Source: Oscillospiraceae bacterium (GTDB lineage Bacteria; Bacillota; Clostridia; Oscillospirales; Oscillospiraceae). Taken from it: a stretch of 64,000 bases of DNA. Both the position numbers and the translations under genes were made by a program. Position 1 is the stretch's first letter, and each line of letters opens with the position of its first letter. This document shows, piece after piece, positions 2,447 to 21,902 of the stretch. The stretch is from assembly GCA_017461445.1 (NCBI GenBank), contig JAFTXW010000011.1, positions 62,001 through 126,000 of the forward strand, read 5' to 3'. The notes beneath the pieces were generated by a model. That model saw nothing but the letters and a program-made list of their open reading frames with translations. It was not told the origin of the DNA and did not search any database.

Positions 2447-3232
2447 ATGGATCGGAATAACATTGAAAAAATTGCCCACAGTGCGGAAGACCGGATGCTT
2501 CTGGCAAAATTGTGGGACAAAATAAACGCGGGAATGCGGAAGAACATTCCTGCCAACAGCTGCTTTCTCTCCCCCAGGGAGCTGGAAATGGCGAAGTTCC
2601 TCTTTGGGGAACCCGAAGGACTGTACGCCTTCGGCGGCTATGGAGAGGCGGAGCGGAAGATGCTTATTTTTCTTCCCGAATATCTGGAAGAAAGCGCGCT
2701 TTACGGGGAGGACAGCCCTGTGGTGTGCCTGCGGGCTTCCTTCTATGAAGGGGACAGCCCCAATCACCGGGATTTTCTCGGTGCCCTAATGGGTGCGGGC
2801 ATCGGAAGGGAGACGGTGGGCGATATCTGCGTGGGCAAGGGCAGCTGTGATTTCTTCGTCACGGCGGAAATTGCTCCCTACATTTTGCAAAATTTCACCT
2901 CTGCCGGACGGACAAAGCTGCATATCGAGAGAATCCCCCTTGCGGAAGCCGCTATCCCGGAGCCGGAGGTAAAGGAGATCCGAGACACCCTGGCATCTCT
3001 GCGGCTGGACAGTGTCATTTCCTCGGGGTTTCGTATTGGACGAAGCCTTGCGGCCCAGTATGTCAGCGGTGGAAAAGCCGCCATTGACGGCCTGCCCTGT
3101 GAAAAGCCCGACAAGGCTGTGGCCGCGGGGGCGAAGATATCCGTCCGGGGGCTGGGAAAAATCAAGCTCCACAGCGTCAATGGGCGCACAAAAAAAGATC
3201 GAATTTCGGTGGTCATCCACCGCTATGTGTGA
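2447..3232 (+). CDS. S4-domain RNA-binding protein, YlmH family
   Basis: 261 residues. The first 170 match the YlmH N-terminal region (GALMGAGIGRETVGDI, then VGKGSCDFFVTAEIAPYI). The last 80 form an S4 RNA-binding domain (LRLDSVISSGFRIGRSLAAQYVSGGKAAIDG). YlmH proteins bind ribosomal RNA, and in Bacillus YlmH has been linked to rescue of stalled ribosomes. In many Firmicutes the gene sits in the ylm/divIVA cluster near ftsZ; here it is instead followed 9 nt later by a DUF896 gene. Confidence 0.85.
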   Translation: MDRNNIEKIAHSAEDRMLLAKLWDKINAGMRKNIPANSCFLSPRELEMAKFLFGEPEGLYAFGGYGEAERKMLIFLPEYLEESALYGEDSPVVCLRASFYEGDSPNHRDFLGALMGAGIGRETVGDICVGKGSCDFFVTAEIAPYILQNFTSAGRTKLHIERIPLAEAAIPEPEVKEIRDTLASLRLDSVISSGFRIGRSLAAQYVSGGKAAIDGLPCEKPDKAVAAGAKISVRGLGKIKLHSVNGRTKKDRISVVIHRYV

Positions 3233-3241
3233 GGTAAAACT

Positions 3242-3445
3242 ATGAATATGAACGAAGTCATCGCCCGGATCAACGAACTGGCGAAAAAAGCAAAGACCGA
3301 GAGCCTGACCCCCGAGGAGCTGACGGAGCGGGACAAGCTGCGGCGCATCTATATTGATTCCGTCAAGGCCAATCTGGTGGGCCAGCTGGAAAACACCTAC
3401 ATTGTCCGCCCCGACGGCAGCAAAGAAAAAGTGAAGCATAAATAA
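3242..3445 (+). CDS. DUF896 (YnzC-like) small protein
   Basis: 67 residues. It shows the two-helix DUF896 pattern: NEVIARINELAKKAKTESLTPEE, then ERDKLRRIYIDSVKANL, with a basic tail ending KVKHK. B. subtilis YnzC is a helical hairpin of this family with no firm function. It is co-directional with the S4 gene 9 nt upstream and is followed by a strong terminator. Confidence 0.85.
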   Translation: MNMNEVIARINELAKKAKTESLTPEELTERDKLRRIYIDSVKANLVGQLENTYIVRPDGSKEKVKHK

Positions 3446-18889: not shown

Positions 18890-18910
18890 TTCCGCAGAGT
18901 GGAGAGTGGA

Positions 18911-19014
18911 GTTAGGAGTGAGGAGTTAGGAATTTTCCGTATGGTGCGGCCAGCTATCAAGTAAGAATGTCACTGCGAGGCCGCGTCTCAGAAAAAACTC
19001 CTAACTCCTAATTC
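18911..19014. repeat. inverted GTTAGGAGT repeats, gene-less copy
   Basis: GTTAGGAGTGAGGAGTTAGG (18911-18930) is mirrored by ACTCCTAACTCCTAATTC (18997-19014). The roughly 60 bp between them (including GCGAGGCCGCG) hold no ORF. It uses the same purine-rich words as the repeats around the acetyltransferase at 19950. Confidence 0.7.
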
Positions 19015-19869: not shown

Positions 19870-19898
19870 AGAGGAAGGCTTCCTGCCTTCCTCTTTTT
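19870..19898 (+). terminator. intrinsic terminator after rpmF
   Basis: AGAGGAAGGC (19870-19879) pairs with GCCTTCCTCT (19885-19894), then TTTT. Confidence 0.88.
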
Positions 19899-19916
19899 CC
19901 GTCTTTTGGAGGAAGT

Positions 19917-20440
19917 TAGGAATTAGGAGTTAGGAGTGAGGAATTTTCTGTGACGATTCTCGAATTCTTTGAACAAAACAGTTTGCGTCAGGCCTATTGG
20001 ACAGAACGCATTTCCGAAGGGGATTGGCGGGCTGCGGTGTATTTGGCGGAGCTGTTGAAGGAAAACAAGTTTGGTGAACGGTATGGGGCTAACGGGCAGG
20101 TGCTTCTGCTGACAGAGGGGGATTCGCTGGTGGCCTTCTGCACTTTGGTGCGGCAAGATGAAATCATGGATGACAGCCTGTTTCCCTGGATCGGGTTTGT
20201 CTATACCTTCCCCCGGTATCGGGGCCATCGGTACAGTCAGAAGCTCATCGACCATGCCTGTACCCTGGCAAAAGCCCAGGGCCATACCAAAATCTACCTC
20301 TCCAGCGATGAACATGGCCTCTACGAAAAATACGGCTTCATCCCCTGGCGGCAGATGCAGACCCTTGGTGGAGAAACCACCCAAGTATTTATCCGTGCGC
20401 TATAAAATGTCAATTCCTCACTCCTAACTCCTAATTCCTA
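19917..20440. repeat. 524-bp gene cassette bounded by perfect 29-bp inverted repeats
   Basis: The left repeat at 19917-19945 begins TAGGAATTAGGAGTTAGG, and its exact reverse complement is at 20412-20440. The acetyltransferase gene begins 4 nt inside the left repeat and ends 6 nt before the right one. No transposase or target-site duplication is visible. The left repeat supplies the purine-rich ribosome-binding region (GAGTGAGG) of the gene. Confidence 0.75.
19950..20405 (+). CDS. GNAT family N-acetyltransferase inside inverted repeats
   Basis: 151 residues from a GTG at 19950, with GAGTGAGG of the flanking repeat 9-10 nt upstream as RBS. The GNAT core is clear: LLTEGDSLVAFCTLVRQDE, WIGFVYTFPRYRGHRYSQKLIDHACTLAKAQGHTKIYLSSDEHGLYEKYGFIP, where RYRGHRYSQ is the acetyl-CoA pyrophosphate loop. 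The acceptor is unknown. It lies alone between two copies of a 29-bp inverted repeat, in a layout like a mobile cassette. Confidence 0.85.
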   Translation: MTILEFFEQNSLRQAYWTERISEGDWRAAVYLAELLKENKFGERYGANGQVLLLTEGDSLVAFCTLVRQDEIMDDSLFPWIGFVYTFPRYRGHRYSQKLIDHACTLAKAQGHTKIYLSSDEHGLYEKYGFIPWRQMQTLGGETTQVFIRAL

Positions 20441-20567
20441 ATTTGCACCAATCTCCACAAATCCTCCCTGTAAATTTTGTATGAATCAGCATTTCCCCAT
20501 TGCTTTTAGGGGAAATGTGTGCAATAATATGTTAGATATCCCTTTATATCGAAAGGAAGTGTATTTC

Positions 20568-21902
20568 ATGGCAAAACCCTTAGTGGCCATCGTTGGACGG
20601 CCCAATGTGGGCAAATCCATGCTGTTTAATAAGCTGACGGGCCACCGGACCTCCATTGTGGAGGACACCCCCGGCGTTACCCGTGACCGCATTTACGGCG
20701 ACTGCGAGTGGTGCGGCCGTACCTTCTCTCTGGTGGATACCGGCGGTATCGAGCCTGGCACCGAGAACGATATGCTGAAATTCATGCGCCGCCAGGCAGA
20801 GATCGGCATTGAGCTGGCGGATGCCATCGTCATGGTGGTGGATGTCCGCAGCGGCGTTACTGCCGCCGACCAGGACGTGGCGACCATGCTGCGCAAGTCC
20901 GGCAAGCCCGTTGCTCTGGCCGTCAACAAGTGTGACTCCATCGGCCTGGTGAACCCCGACGTGTTTGAGTTCTACAGCCTGGGCATCGGCGACCTGTTCG
21001 AGACCTCCGCCGTCCACGGCCACGGCACCGGCGACCTCTTGGACTGGGTGCTGGAGAACATCCCCGAAAACGACGAGGAGGATGAGGAGAGCGACATCAT
21101 CAAGGTCGCCATCGTGGGCAAGCCCAACGTGGGCAAGTCCAGCCTCCTGAACCGCATTCTGGGCGAGGAGCGGGTCATCGTCTCCAACGTGGCGGGCACC
21201 ACCCGGGACGCCATCGACTCCTACTTTGAAAACGAGACCGGTAAGTATTGCTTCATCGATACCGCCGGTATGCGCCGCAAGAGCAAGGTGGACGATGCCA
21301 TTGAGAAGTATTCCAACATGCGCTCCATCAACGCCATTGAGCGGGCTGACGTGTGCCTGATCCTCATCGATGCCAACGACGGCGTAACCGAGCAGGACAC
21401 CAAGATCGCGGGCCTGGTCCACGAAGCAGGCAAAGCCGCCATCATCGTAGTCAACAAGTGGGACGCAGTTGAAAACAAAGAAACCAACACCATGCGGGAC
21501 ATGGAGGCCGATGTGCGCAACGGCCTGAGCTACATGCTCTACGCCCCCGTGCTGTTCCTGTCCGCCCTCACCGGCTCCCGTGTGGACAAGCTGTATCAGG
21601 TGATCCAGGAGGTTCACGCCCAGAATACCAGCCGTATCACCACCGGTGCGCTGAACAGCGTCCTGGCCGATGCCACCGCCCGTGTTCAGCCCCCCACGGA
21701 CAAGGGCCGCCGCCTGAAGATCTACTACATGACCCAGGCCAGCACCAAGCCCCCCCATTTCGTCATTTTCTGCAACGATGCGCGGCTGTTCCACTTCTCC
21801 TACCAGCGGTATCTGGAAAACCAGATCCGGGAGGTCTTTGGTCTGCAGGGTACGCCCATCCGCATCACCATCCGCCAAAAGGGCGATAAGGAGGATGACT
21901 GA
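20568..21902 (+). CDS. der: ribosome biogenesis GTPase Der (EngA)
   Basis: 444 residues from the ATG at 20568, with GAAAGGAAG 8 nt before; the upstream in-frame ATG has no RBS. Two tandem GTPase domains have P-loops GRPNVGKS and GKPNVGKS, DTxG motifs (DTGGIEPGT and DTAGMRR) and NKxD motifs (NKCD and NKWD). A C-terminal KH-like domain (KIYYMTQASTKPPHFVIFCND) follows. It assembles the 50S subunit. It heads der-plsY-gpsA, all overlapping by 1-4 nt. Confidence 0.97.
   Translation: MAKPLVAIVGRPNVGKSMLFNKLTGHRTSIVEDTPGVTRDRIYGDCEWCGRTFSLVDTGGIEPGTENDMLKFMRRQAEIGIELADAIVMVVDVRSGVTAADQDVATMLRKSGKPVALAVNKCDSIGLVNPDVFEFYSLGIGDLFETSAVHGHGTGDLLDWVLENIPENDEEDEESDIIKVAIVGKPNVGKSSLLNRILGEERVIVSNVAGTTRDAIDSYFENETGKYCFIDTAGMRRKSKVDDAIEKYSNMRSINAIERADVCLILIDANDGVTEQDTKIAGLVHEAGKAAIIVVNKWDAVENKETNTMRDMEADVRNGLSYMLYAPVLFLSALTGSRVDKLYQVIQEVHAQNTSRITTGALNSVLADATARVQPPTDKGRRLKIYYMTQASTKPPHFVIFCNDARLFHFSYQRYLENQIREVFGLQGTPIRITIRQKGDKEDD

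Follow-up and report, generated by a model that had tools for sequence, protein, structure and literature searches.

Among described systems, the closest comparison for the locus reported here is the intervening sequence (IVS) of 23S rRNA that carries an open-reading frame for the S23p or IVP protein (PF05635, TIGR02436). In the sections of the Coxiella study consulted here, the IVS is a 428 nt insert in the 23S rRNA with a 28-bp terminal stem and tandem heptameric repeats ahead of the S23p open-reading frame, it is cleaved by RNase III in vitro, and S23p is apparently not produced in vivo, which weighs against the protein being at work in the Coxiella element; the same sections note that more than 25 years have not made it clear what rRNA intervening sequences do or where they came from (PMC4990558). 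The 23S rRNA IVP is also named among domains in a figure legend of a further paper (PMC10910872), in a part of that source that has no bearing on the present question. Heptameric repeats of the GGGAATC type are described from Xanthomonas and Nostoc, in arrays mostly of four units, and the excerpted part of that report gives 70 and 75 convergent inverted pairs for two Xanthomonas genomes (PMC4692102), whilst an excerpt of another describes TAACTGA heptads upstream of start codons in Beggiatoaceae (PMC4679880). The latter may be related to such arrays. Among the matches listed from the open-licence literature there was no report linking intergenic heptad inverted repeats to IVP/S23 genes and none of other cargo in heptad-armed units, and no mention of the arm-like sequence TTAGGAGTTAGGAGTTAGGAG was found in the literature searched. 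A further point of comparison is offered by MITEs, which have short inverted-repeat ends and many copies and possess no transposase of their own.

Here we describe a small gene-bearing unit in the window, by which we mean the whole 64,000 nt stretch of DNA that was analysed, from an Oscillospiraceae bacterium. Two inverted arms of 30 nt enclose a single GNAT acetyltransferase gene in the spacer between rpmF and der, the unit having a total size of 526 nt. The features of the region are:

18898..19014, no strand: gene-less hairpin with the same heptads, its arms at 18912-18932 and 18998-19011 enclosing a 65 nt loop
19665..19850, + strand: rpmF (L32), the left flank, conserved in congeners
19870..19899, + strand: terminator-like stem and T run 3' of rpmF, just upstream of the GNAT unit, recognised by eye
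19916..19945, + strand: left arm, heptads TTAGGAA TTAGGAG TTAGGAG TGAGGAA, then TT
19932..19942, + strand: Shine-Dalgarno-like AGGAGTGAGGA within the left arm, read from the sequence, its function putative
19950..20405, + strand: complete gene for a GNAT acetyltransferase of 151 aa, starting with GTG
20412..20441, - strand: right arm, identical to the left arm in inverted orientation
20568..21902, + strand: der/EngA GTPase gene, forming the right flank and conserved in congeners; its start codon was assigned by eye

Each arm is built of four degenerate heptads, TKAGGAR, followed by TT. The exact inverted repeat amounts to 30 nt per arm, one pair more than the perfect 29-bp repeats that an earlier note on this DNA had claimed, and is embedded in a 40 nt repeat at 93%. 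The gene runs for 456 nt from the GTG at 19950 to the TAA at 20405 and lies 4 nt (TTCT) from the left arm and 6 nt (AATGTC) from the right arm, just as that note had given it, to the base; its own stop codon falls 6 nt short of the right arm, and the unit contains one open-reading frame and hardly anything besides. The protein is assigned to the GNAT family by Pfam (PF00583, E 2.4e-11) and is full length, 11 homologues of ~40–57% identity aligning with it end to end. The gene is ordinary, and its packaging is the unusual part. The left arm had been said to supply the ribosome-binding region, and it does hold the Shine-Dalgarno-like AGGAGTGAGGA, which stops 7 nt upstream of the GTG and would by its position serve this purpose. 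The statement that no transposase is near agrees with the seven neighbouring proteins put to Pfam, which included none, and the related gene-less copy said to lie close by is real, being the hairpin at 18898..19014. Between rpmF and the GNAT gene, a consensus scan listed nothing promoter-like on the strand of the latter, and it listed no terminator at 19870..19899. A 22 nt core pattern (≤3 mismatches) has four matches in the window, with a maximum of 0 in 100 shuffles. In the predicted RNA fold, an uninterrupted 33-bp stem closes around the GNAT gene (z −4.9, a stability matched by none of 100 shuffles). This stem takes in the Shine-Dalgarno-like sequence, and translation would therefore need to start before the right arm is transcribed.

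These features are close to those of an IVS. The ~28-bp inverted stem of the latter has its counterpart in the 30 nt arms and 33-bp predicted stem of the GNAT unit, and both have heptads beside the start of the open-reading frame, a single small open-reading frame and a similar size (428 nt in Coxiella, 526 nt here). However, the unit carries a GNAT and not an IVP/S23 open-reading frame (PF05635), it lies between rpmF and der and not, as a classical IVS does, in 23S rRNA, and its heptad is TKAGGAR whereas that of the Coxiella IVS is GACAGAT; having no IVP open-reading frame and lying outside 23S rRNA, it is called here IVS/IVP-like and not an IVS. The Xanthomonas and Nostoc repeats differ from it in their heptad, and the consulted part of their description mentions no gene between the arms, no link to IVP and no explanation as mobile elements (PMC4692102). 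The family of the GNAT unit is MITE-like in its short inverted-repeat ends, in the lack of a visible transposase and in its many gene-less copies, but it differs from MITEs in that the proteins and loops examined included no transposase with such ends, and the loop sequences of the gene-less hairpins are apparently unrelated to one another. The arms do not seem to resemble the attC sites of integron gene cassettes.

The arms belong to a family that is dispersed through the host genome. The 30 nt pattern (≤3 mismatches) has 14 forward and 10 reverse matches, against 0 and 0 in a backward control, and a two-heptad pattern (≤1 mismatch) has 107 and 101 against 10 and 6. Arrays were read in the stretches around the listed matches, with contigs C43 and C46 omitted as repeats of C24, so that the hairpin counts are minimum values: there are at least 83 arrays, at least 57 of which have four heptads or more, and where two neighbouring arrays are separated by less than 600 nt they converge in at least 32 cases, diverge in one and share a strand in one. 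The loops of 31 of the 32 convergent pairs are 3–70 nt long and gene-less, the remaining pair, that of the GNAT unit, encloses 470 nt, and it alone has both a gene and identical arms. By best ungapped match, a comparison limited to host pairs because the search windows were wider for other genomes, the arms agree at 28/28 positions in the GNAT unit and at 16–26/28 in the 31 gene-less pairs. Identity is also rare among the 1485 pairs that can be formed from other host arms, one pair being identical and 20 reaching 27/28 over the inner 28 nt, and two being identical and 29 reaching 27/28 in the best heptad register, which makes it unlikely that two independent insertions yielded the identical arms of the GNAT unit. 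The exact 30 nt arm is found once more, at C14:2347-2376, and five further arrays are one base off, which leaves room for the separate landing of two like arms. Some arms have no near partner and some, judged by eye, adjoin other repeats instead.

Several other places in this genome deserve mention. A 132-aa open-reading frame, membrane-protein-like by eye and with no Pfam match, lies between two complete TKAGGAR hairpins at C24:24611-25157 (L297) and again at C43:18493-19046 (L298), and forms a composite counterpart of the GNAT unit. The arrays of C24 recur in reversed order in C43 and C46, which suggests redundant contigs or two strains in the draft. The region C14:17317-18594, with 1236 nt between arrays, was considered as a cassette and rejected, since it holds several open-reading frames on both strands. 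At C14:17550-17900 (L095) there is a run of very short open-reading frames, for example MKKLLKAIGKSIAESCVDIAYTFGLQ, which by eye are possible small peptides.

In the relatives of the host the site is without the unit. The yceD-rpmF-der region was matched at E ≤ 1e-20 in 132 of the 136 genomes of the genus (host included), and in 50 congeners (40 + 10) the spacer was read together with its two flanks, single-flank loci and same-genome repeats having been dropped. TKAGGAR arms were found in the rpmF-der spacer of none of these 50, all of which lack the GNAT unit, and among the matches listed for the genus no GNAT falls at an rpmF-der place. Measured in one and the same way, the spacer is 86–533 nt long in 40 congeners and 720 nt long in the host; in the other ten, taken between aligned flanks, it spans 51–286 nt in nine and 1430 nt in G002, the insert of which (G002:C3:65726-67156, L171) holds a methyltransferase gene (PF08241, E 8e-19). 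Hairpins of GTGGAG-type heptads are present at rpmF-der in G117 and G139 and an array of that type in G119, all recognised by eye, and with the G002 insert they mark the spacer as a hot spot for small inserts. Its divergence in the relatives is such that junctions, a clean empty site or a target duplication cannot be read.

To see what such arms enclose elsewhere, 84,980 species genomes were scanned for three exact TKAGGAR heptads followed by a 430–490 nt loop and the inverted complement. The scan returned 56 stretches from many phyla, labelled Clostridia, Ruminococcus, Prevotellaceae, Bacteroidales, Lentisphaeria, Planctomycetota, Acidobacteriota, Chloroflexi, Calothrix and others, many of the records being MAGs for which some taxon labels may be wrong, and two pairs of stretches being near-identical (L190/L231, L236/L241). 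The loops matched the 23S rRNA intervening-sequence protein (IVP/S23, PF05635) in 29 of the 56, a count in which many matches are those of a loop with itself or its like, as the 27 IVP query proteins were motif-picked from the same loops. Eight IVP-matching loops were put to Pfam and all eight gave PF05635, at 78–103 bits (cut-off 33.8), and one of them matches PDB 2rld (E 1.5e-37). A recognised gene was present in two of the other 27 loops: in L191 (labelled Thermoanaerobaculales, 2350-2852) an FeS-assembly gene (PF01883) lies between two whole, inverted copies of a single heptad hairpin, and in L218 (labelled Prevotellaceae, 2850-3376) a heptad hairpin sits, apparently in frame, within an RNase H reading frame. 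No gene was recognised in 25 of the 56 loops, of which seven had their longest open frame put to Pfam without a match and the others were judged by eye, and among the 56 stretches there was no second GNAT unit and no other recognised non-IVP gene between two bare arms. For its own loop range the GNAT unit occurs in one of the 136 genomes of the genus. Loops of 491–551 nt in 394 genomes of the order gave matches only in G516 and in the double-hairpin region of host C24/C43, and viral contigs gave 0 matches with loops of 430–490 nt and two with loops of 370–430 nt, in which no gene was recognised and one open-reading frame (L294) has no Pfam family.

The earlier note had likened the unit to a mobile cassette and had looked to different cargo genes between the same ends as support for a mobile family. 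The repeats are not confined to this locus and they do enclose genes elsewhere, and the idea of mobility is favoured by their dispersal, by the absence from the site in 50 of 50 congeners and by like ends around IVP/S23 genes (29/56). The idea of varied cargo fared poorly: beyond IVP, the genes recognised in the 56 stretches were just the FeS-assembly gene, with its whole hairpins, and the RNase H frame, and the single GNAT unit of this loop range in 136 congeners together with the lack of any recognised bare-arm non-IVP gene among the 56 argues against a cargo family. As to packaging, the left arm lies ≤5 nt from the start codon or overlaps it in 5 of the 25 IVP units whose start could be measured (L198, L203, L212, L221, L223) and is 26–133 nt distant in 20, the start codons having been picked by a crude rule; the stop codon is ≤12 nt from the right arm or within it in 19 of 27, and 13 of 27 IVP frames (e.g. 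L189, L203, L223) end in NS inside the right arm, which there provides the stop codon. The packaging of the GNAT is inside the range of the IVP units, yet tighter upstream than most.

IVP genes are frequent in the genus of the host, PF05635 being present in 94 of 136 genomes (E ≤ 0.001) and in three copies in the host itself. We compared 47 IVP loci, the 30 best-scoring plus 17 more that include the three of the host, which are not all independent, since L272 and L285, from two genomes, look alike. An exact inverted repeat of ≥11 nt spans the IVP gene in 31 of the 47 against 1 of 175 shifted controls, and at 12 nt in 28 loci against 0 controls. The flanks match themselves at lag 7 (0.407 vs. 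0.242 in controls) and lag 14 (0.352 vs. 0.243), and by this lag-7 signal heptad-built arms are common to the IVP flanks of the genus and the GNAT unit with its four TKAGGAR. By eye, the heptad varies from element to element (AATTGAC, AATTGAA, AGATACA, AATGCAA, GTGGAGA, TTAGGAR and others) and is mirrored within each; TTAGGAR arms surround IVP genes in G011 and G071 (L257, L259). A family of ends defined by sequence was therefore rejected in favour of architecture, because the IVP arms in the genus use many heptads, and the trait common to IVP elements is this architecture and not one sequence. Among the observations that count against an IVS/IVP reading of the GNAT unit are that 16 of the 47 IVP loci have no exact 11-nt inverted repeat and that the three host IVP loci have zero TKAGGAR arrays, and the close upstream packing, untypical of IVP units, and the lack of such repeats at the GNAT homologue loci described below weigh in the same direction. 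By eye, IVP elements with differing heptads occupy seemingly one spacer in several congeners (L247, L250, L251, L254, L257, L259, L270), which we take to be purH-purD, and the insertion there, a few nt past the stop codon, makes it a recurrent insertion site.

Since the GNAT unit has the same ends, size and open-reading-frame-in-loop plan as the IVP elements, we read it as a stem-loop element of the IVS/IVP type with a GNAT open-reading frame in place of that for IVP/S23, a reading whose chances appear to us about even. Two four-heptad arms would pair into a ~30-bp stem with the single open-reading frame between them. The arms, the packaging of an open-reading frame and little else, the absence from the site in relatives and the like arms around IVP genes elsewhere are all observed, and from these we infer that the unit moved as one piece. 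It would have entered the rpmF-der spacer whole, carried by the process that disperses IVP elements along with their gene-less hairpins and perhaps aided in trans by one of the host's three IVP genes. Transcription would reach it by read-through from rpmF, the GNAT would be translated off the arm's own Shine-Dalgarno sequence before the right arm closes the stem, and RNase III, by analogy with the IVS of 23S rRNA, could cut the stem out of the mRNA. More broadly, IVP/IVS elements might be tiny mobile stem-loops found bacteria-wide, the ends of which are set by architecture (about four inverted heptads of free sequence) and which spread outside rRNA, leave gene-less hairpins and swap IVP for an unrelated gene that moves with the aid of IVP proteins in trans; we offer this wider proposal tentatively, as a possibility that may well fail. 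The GNAT unit would bring classical IVSs, the IVP genes that lie outside rRNA and the dispersed heptad hairpins together in a single class open to testing, and the GNAT is a marker gene for asking whether the ends alone suffice for movement.

Identical arms could also have come together without any unit having moved, if two heptad elements flanked a horizontally acquired GNAT in a hot spot and gave one arm each. This is somewhat unlikely, for although the rpmF-der spacer gathers inserts (the hairpins of G117 and G139, the 1.4-kb methyltransferase insert of G002), like arrangements exist (the 132-aa open-reading frame at C24:24611-25157, the FeS-assembly gene in L191), and arms without a near partner occur, with the exact 30 nt arm at one more genome site, the 28/28 identity of the two arms is equalled in only one or two of 1485 pairs of other host arms, and several coincidences would be needed to place one bare inverted arm on each side, 4–6 nt from the open-reading frame. 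An improbable alternative is that the GNAT open-reading frame recombined into a resident short-loop hairpin, the arms being equalised later by gene conversion: the genome has at least 31 hairpins with loops of 3–70 nt, and by eye some arms adjoin other repeats where the partner would be, but this requires an insert of precisely one open-reading frame with hardly any flanks, and ordinary host hairpins have unequal arms whereas those around the GNAT are perfect. The overlap of the arm with the Shine-Dalgarno-like sequence and the strong RNA stem would also suit a purely regulatory stem, an attenuator or RNase III site around an immobile, resident gene, yet the repeats form a dispersed host family, occur in many phyla, are absent at the site in 50 of 50 congeners and stand around unrelated IVP genes, and we consider this explanation highly improbable. 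For the GNAT unit a one-off capture is possible, as is a composite formed by two insertions, and tiny hairpin elements as a class may be capable of carrying foreign genes.

The GNAT itself is more widespread than its packaging. Matches occur in 41 of the 136 genomes of the genus (host counted, E ≤ 0.001), the best outside the host at 43% identity. Within the order, 27 of 394 genomes have a match (host counted, E ≤ 1e-15), the best at 57%. Heptad arrays or flanking exact inverted repeats were found at none of 36 homologue loci, a few of which are near a contig edge and have one flank short. Plasmid and phage homologues are distant, the nearest sharing 29% and 37% identity, respectively. The 37% identical phage homologue is at 43-348 of record MT838454.1, a 5.2-kb unannotated faecal phage record.
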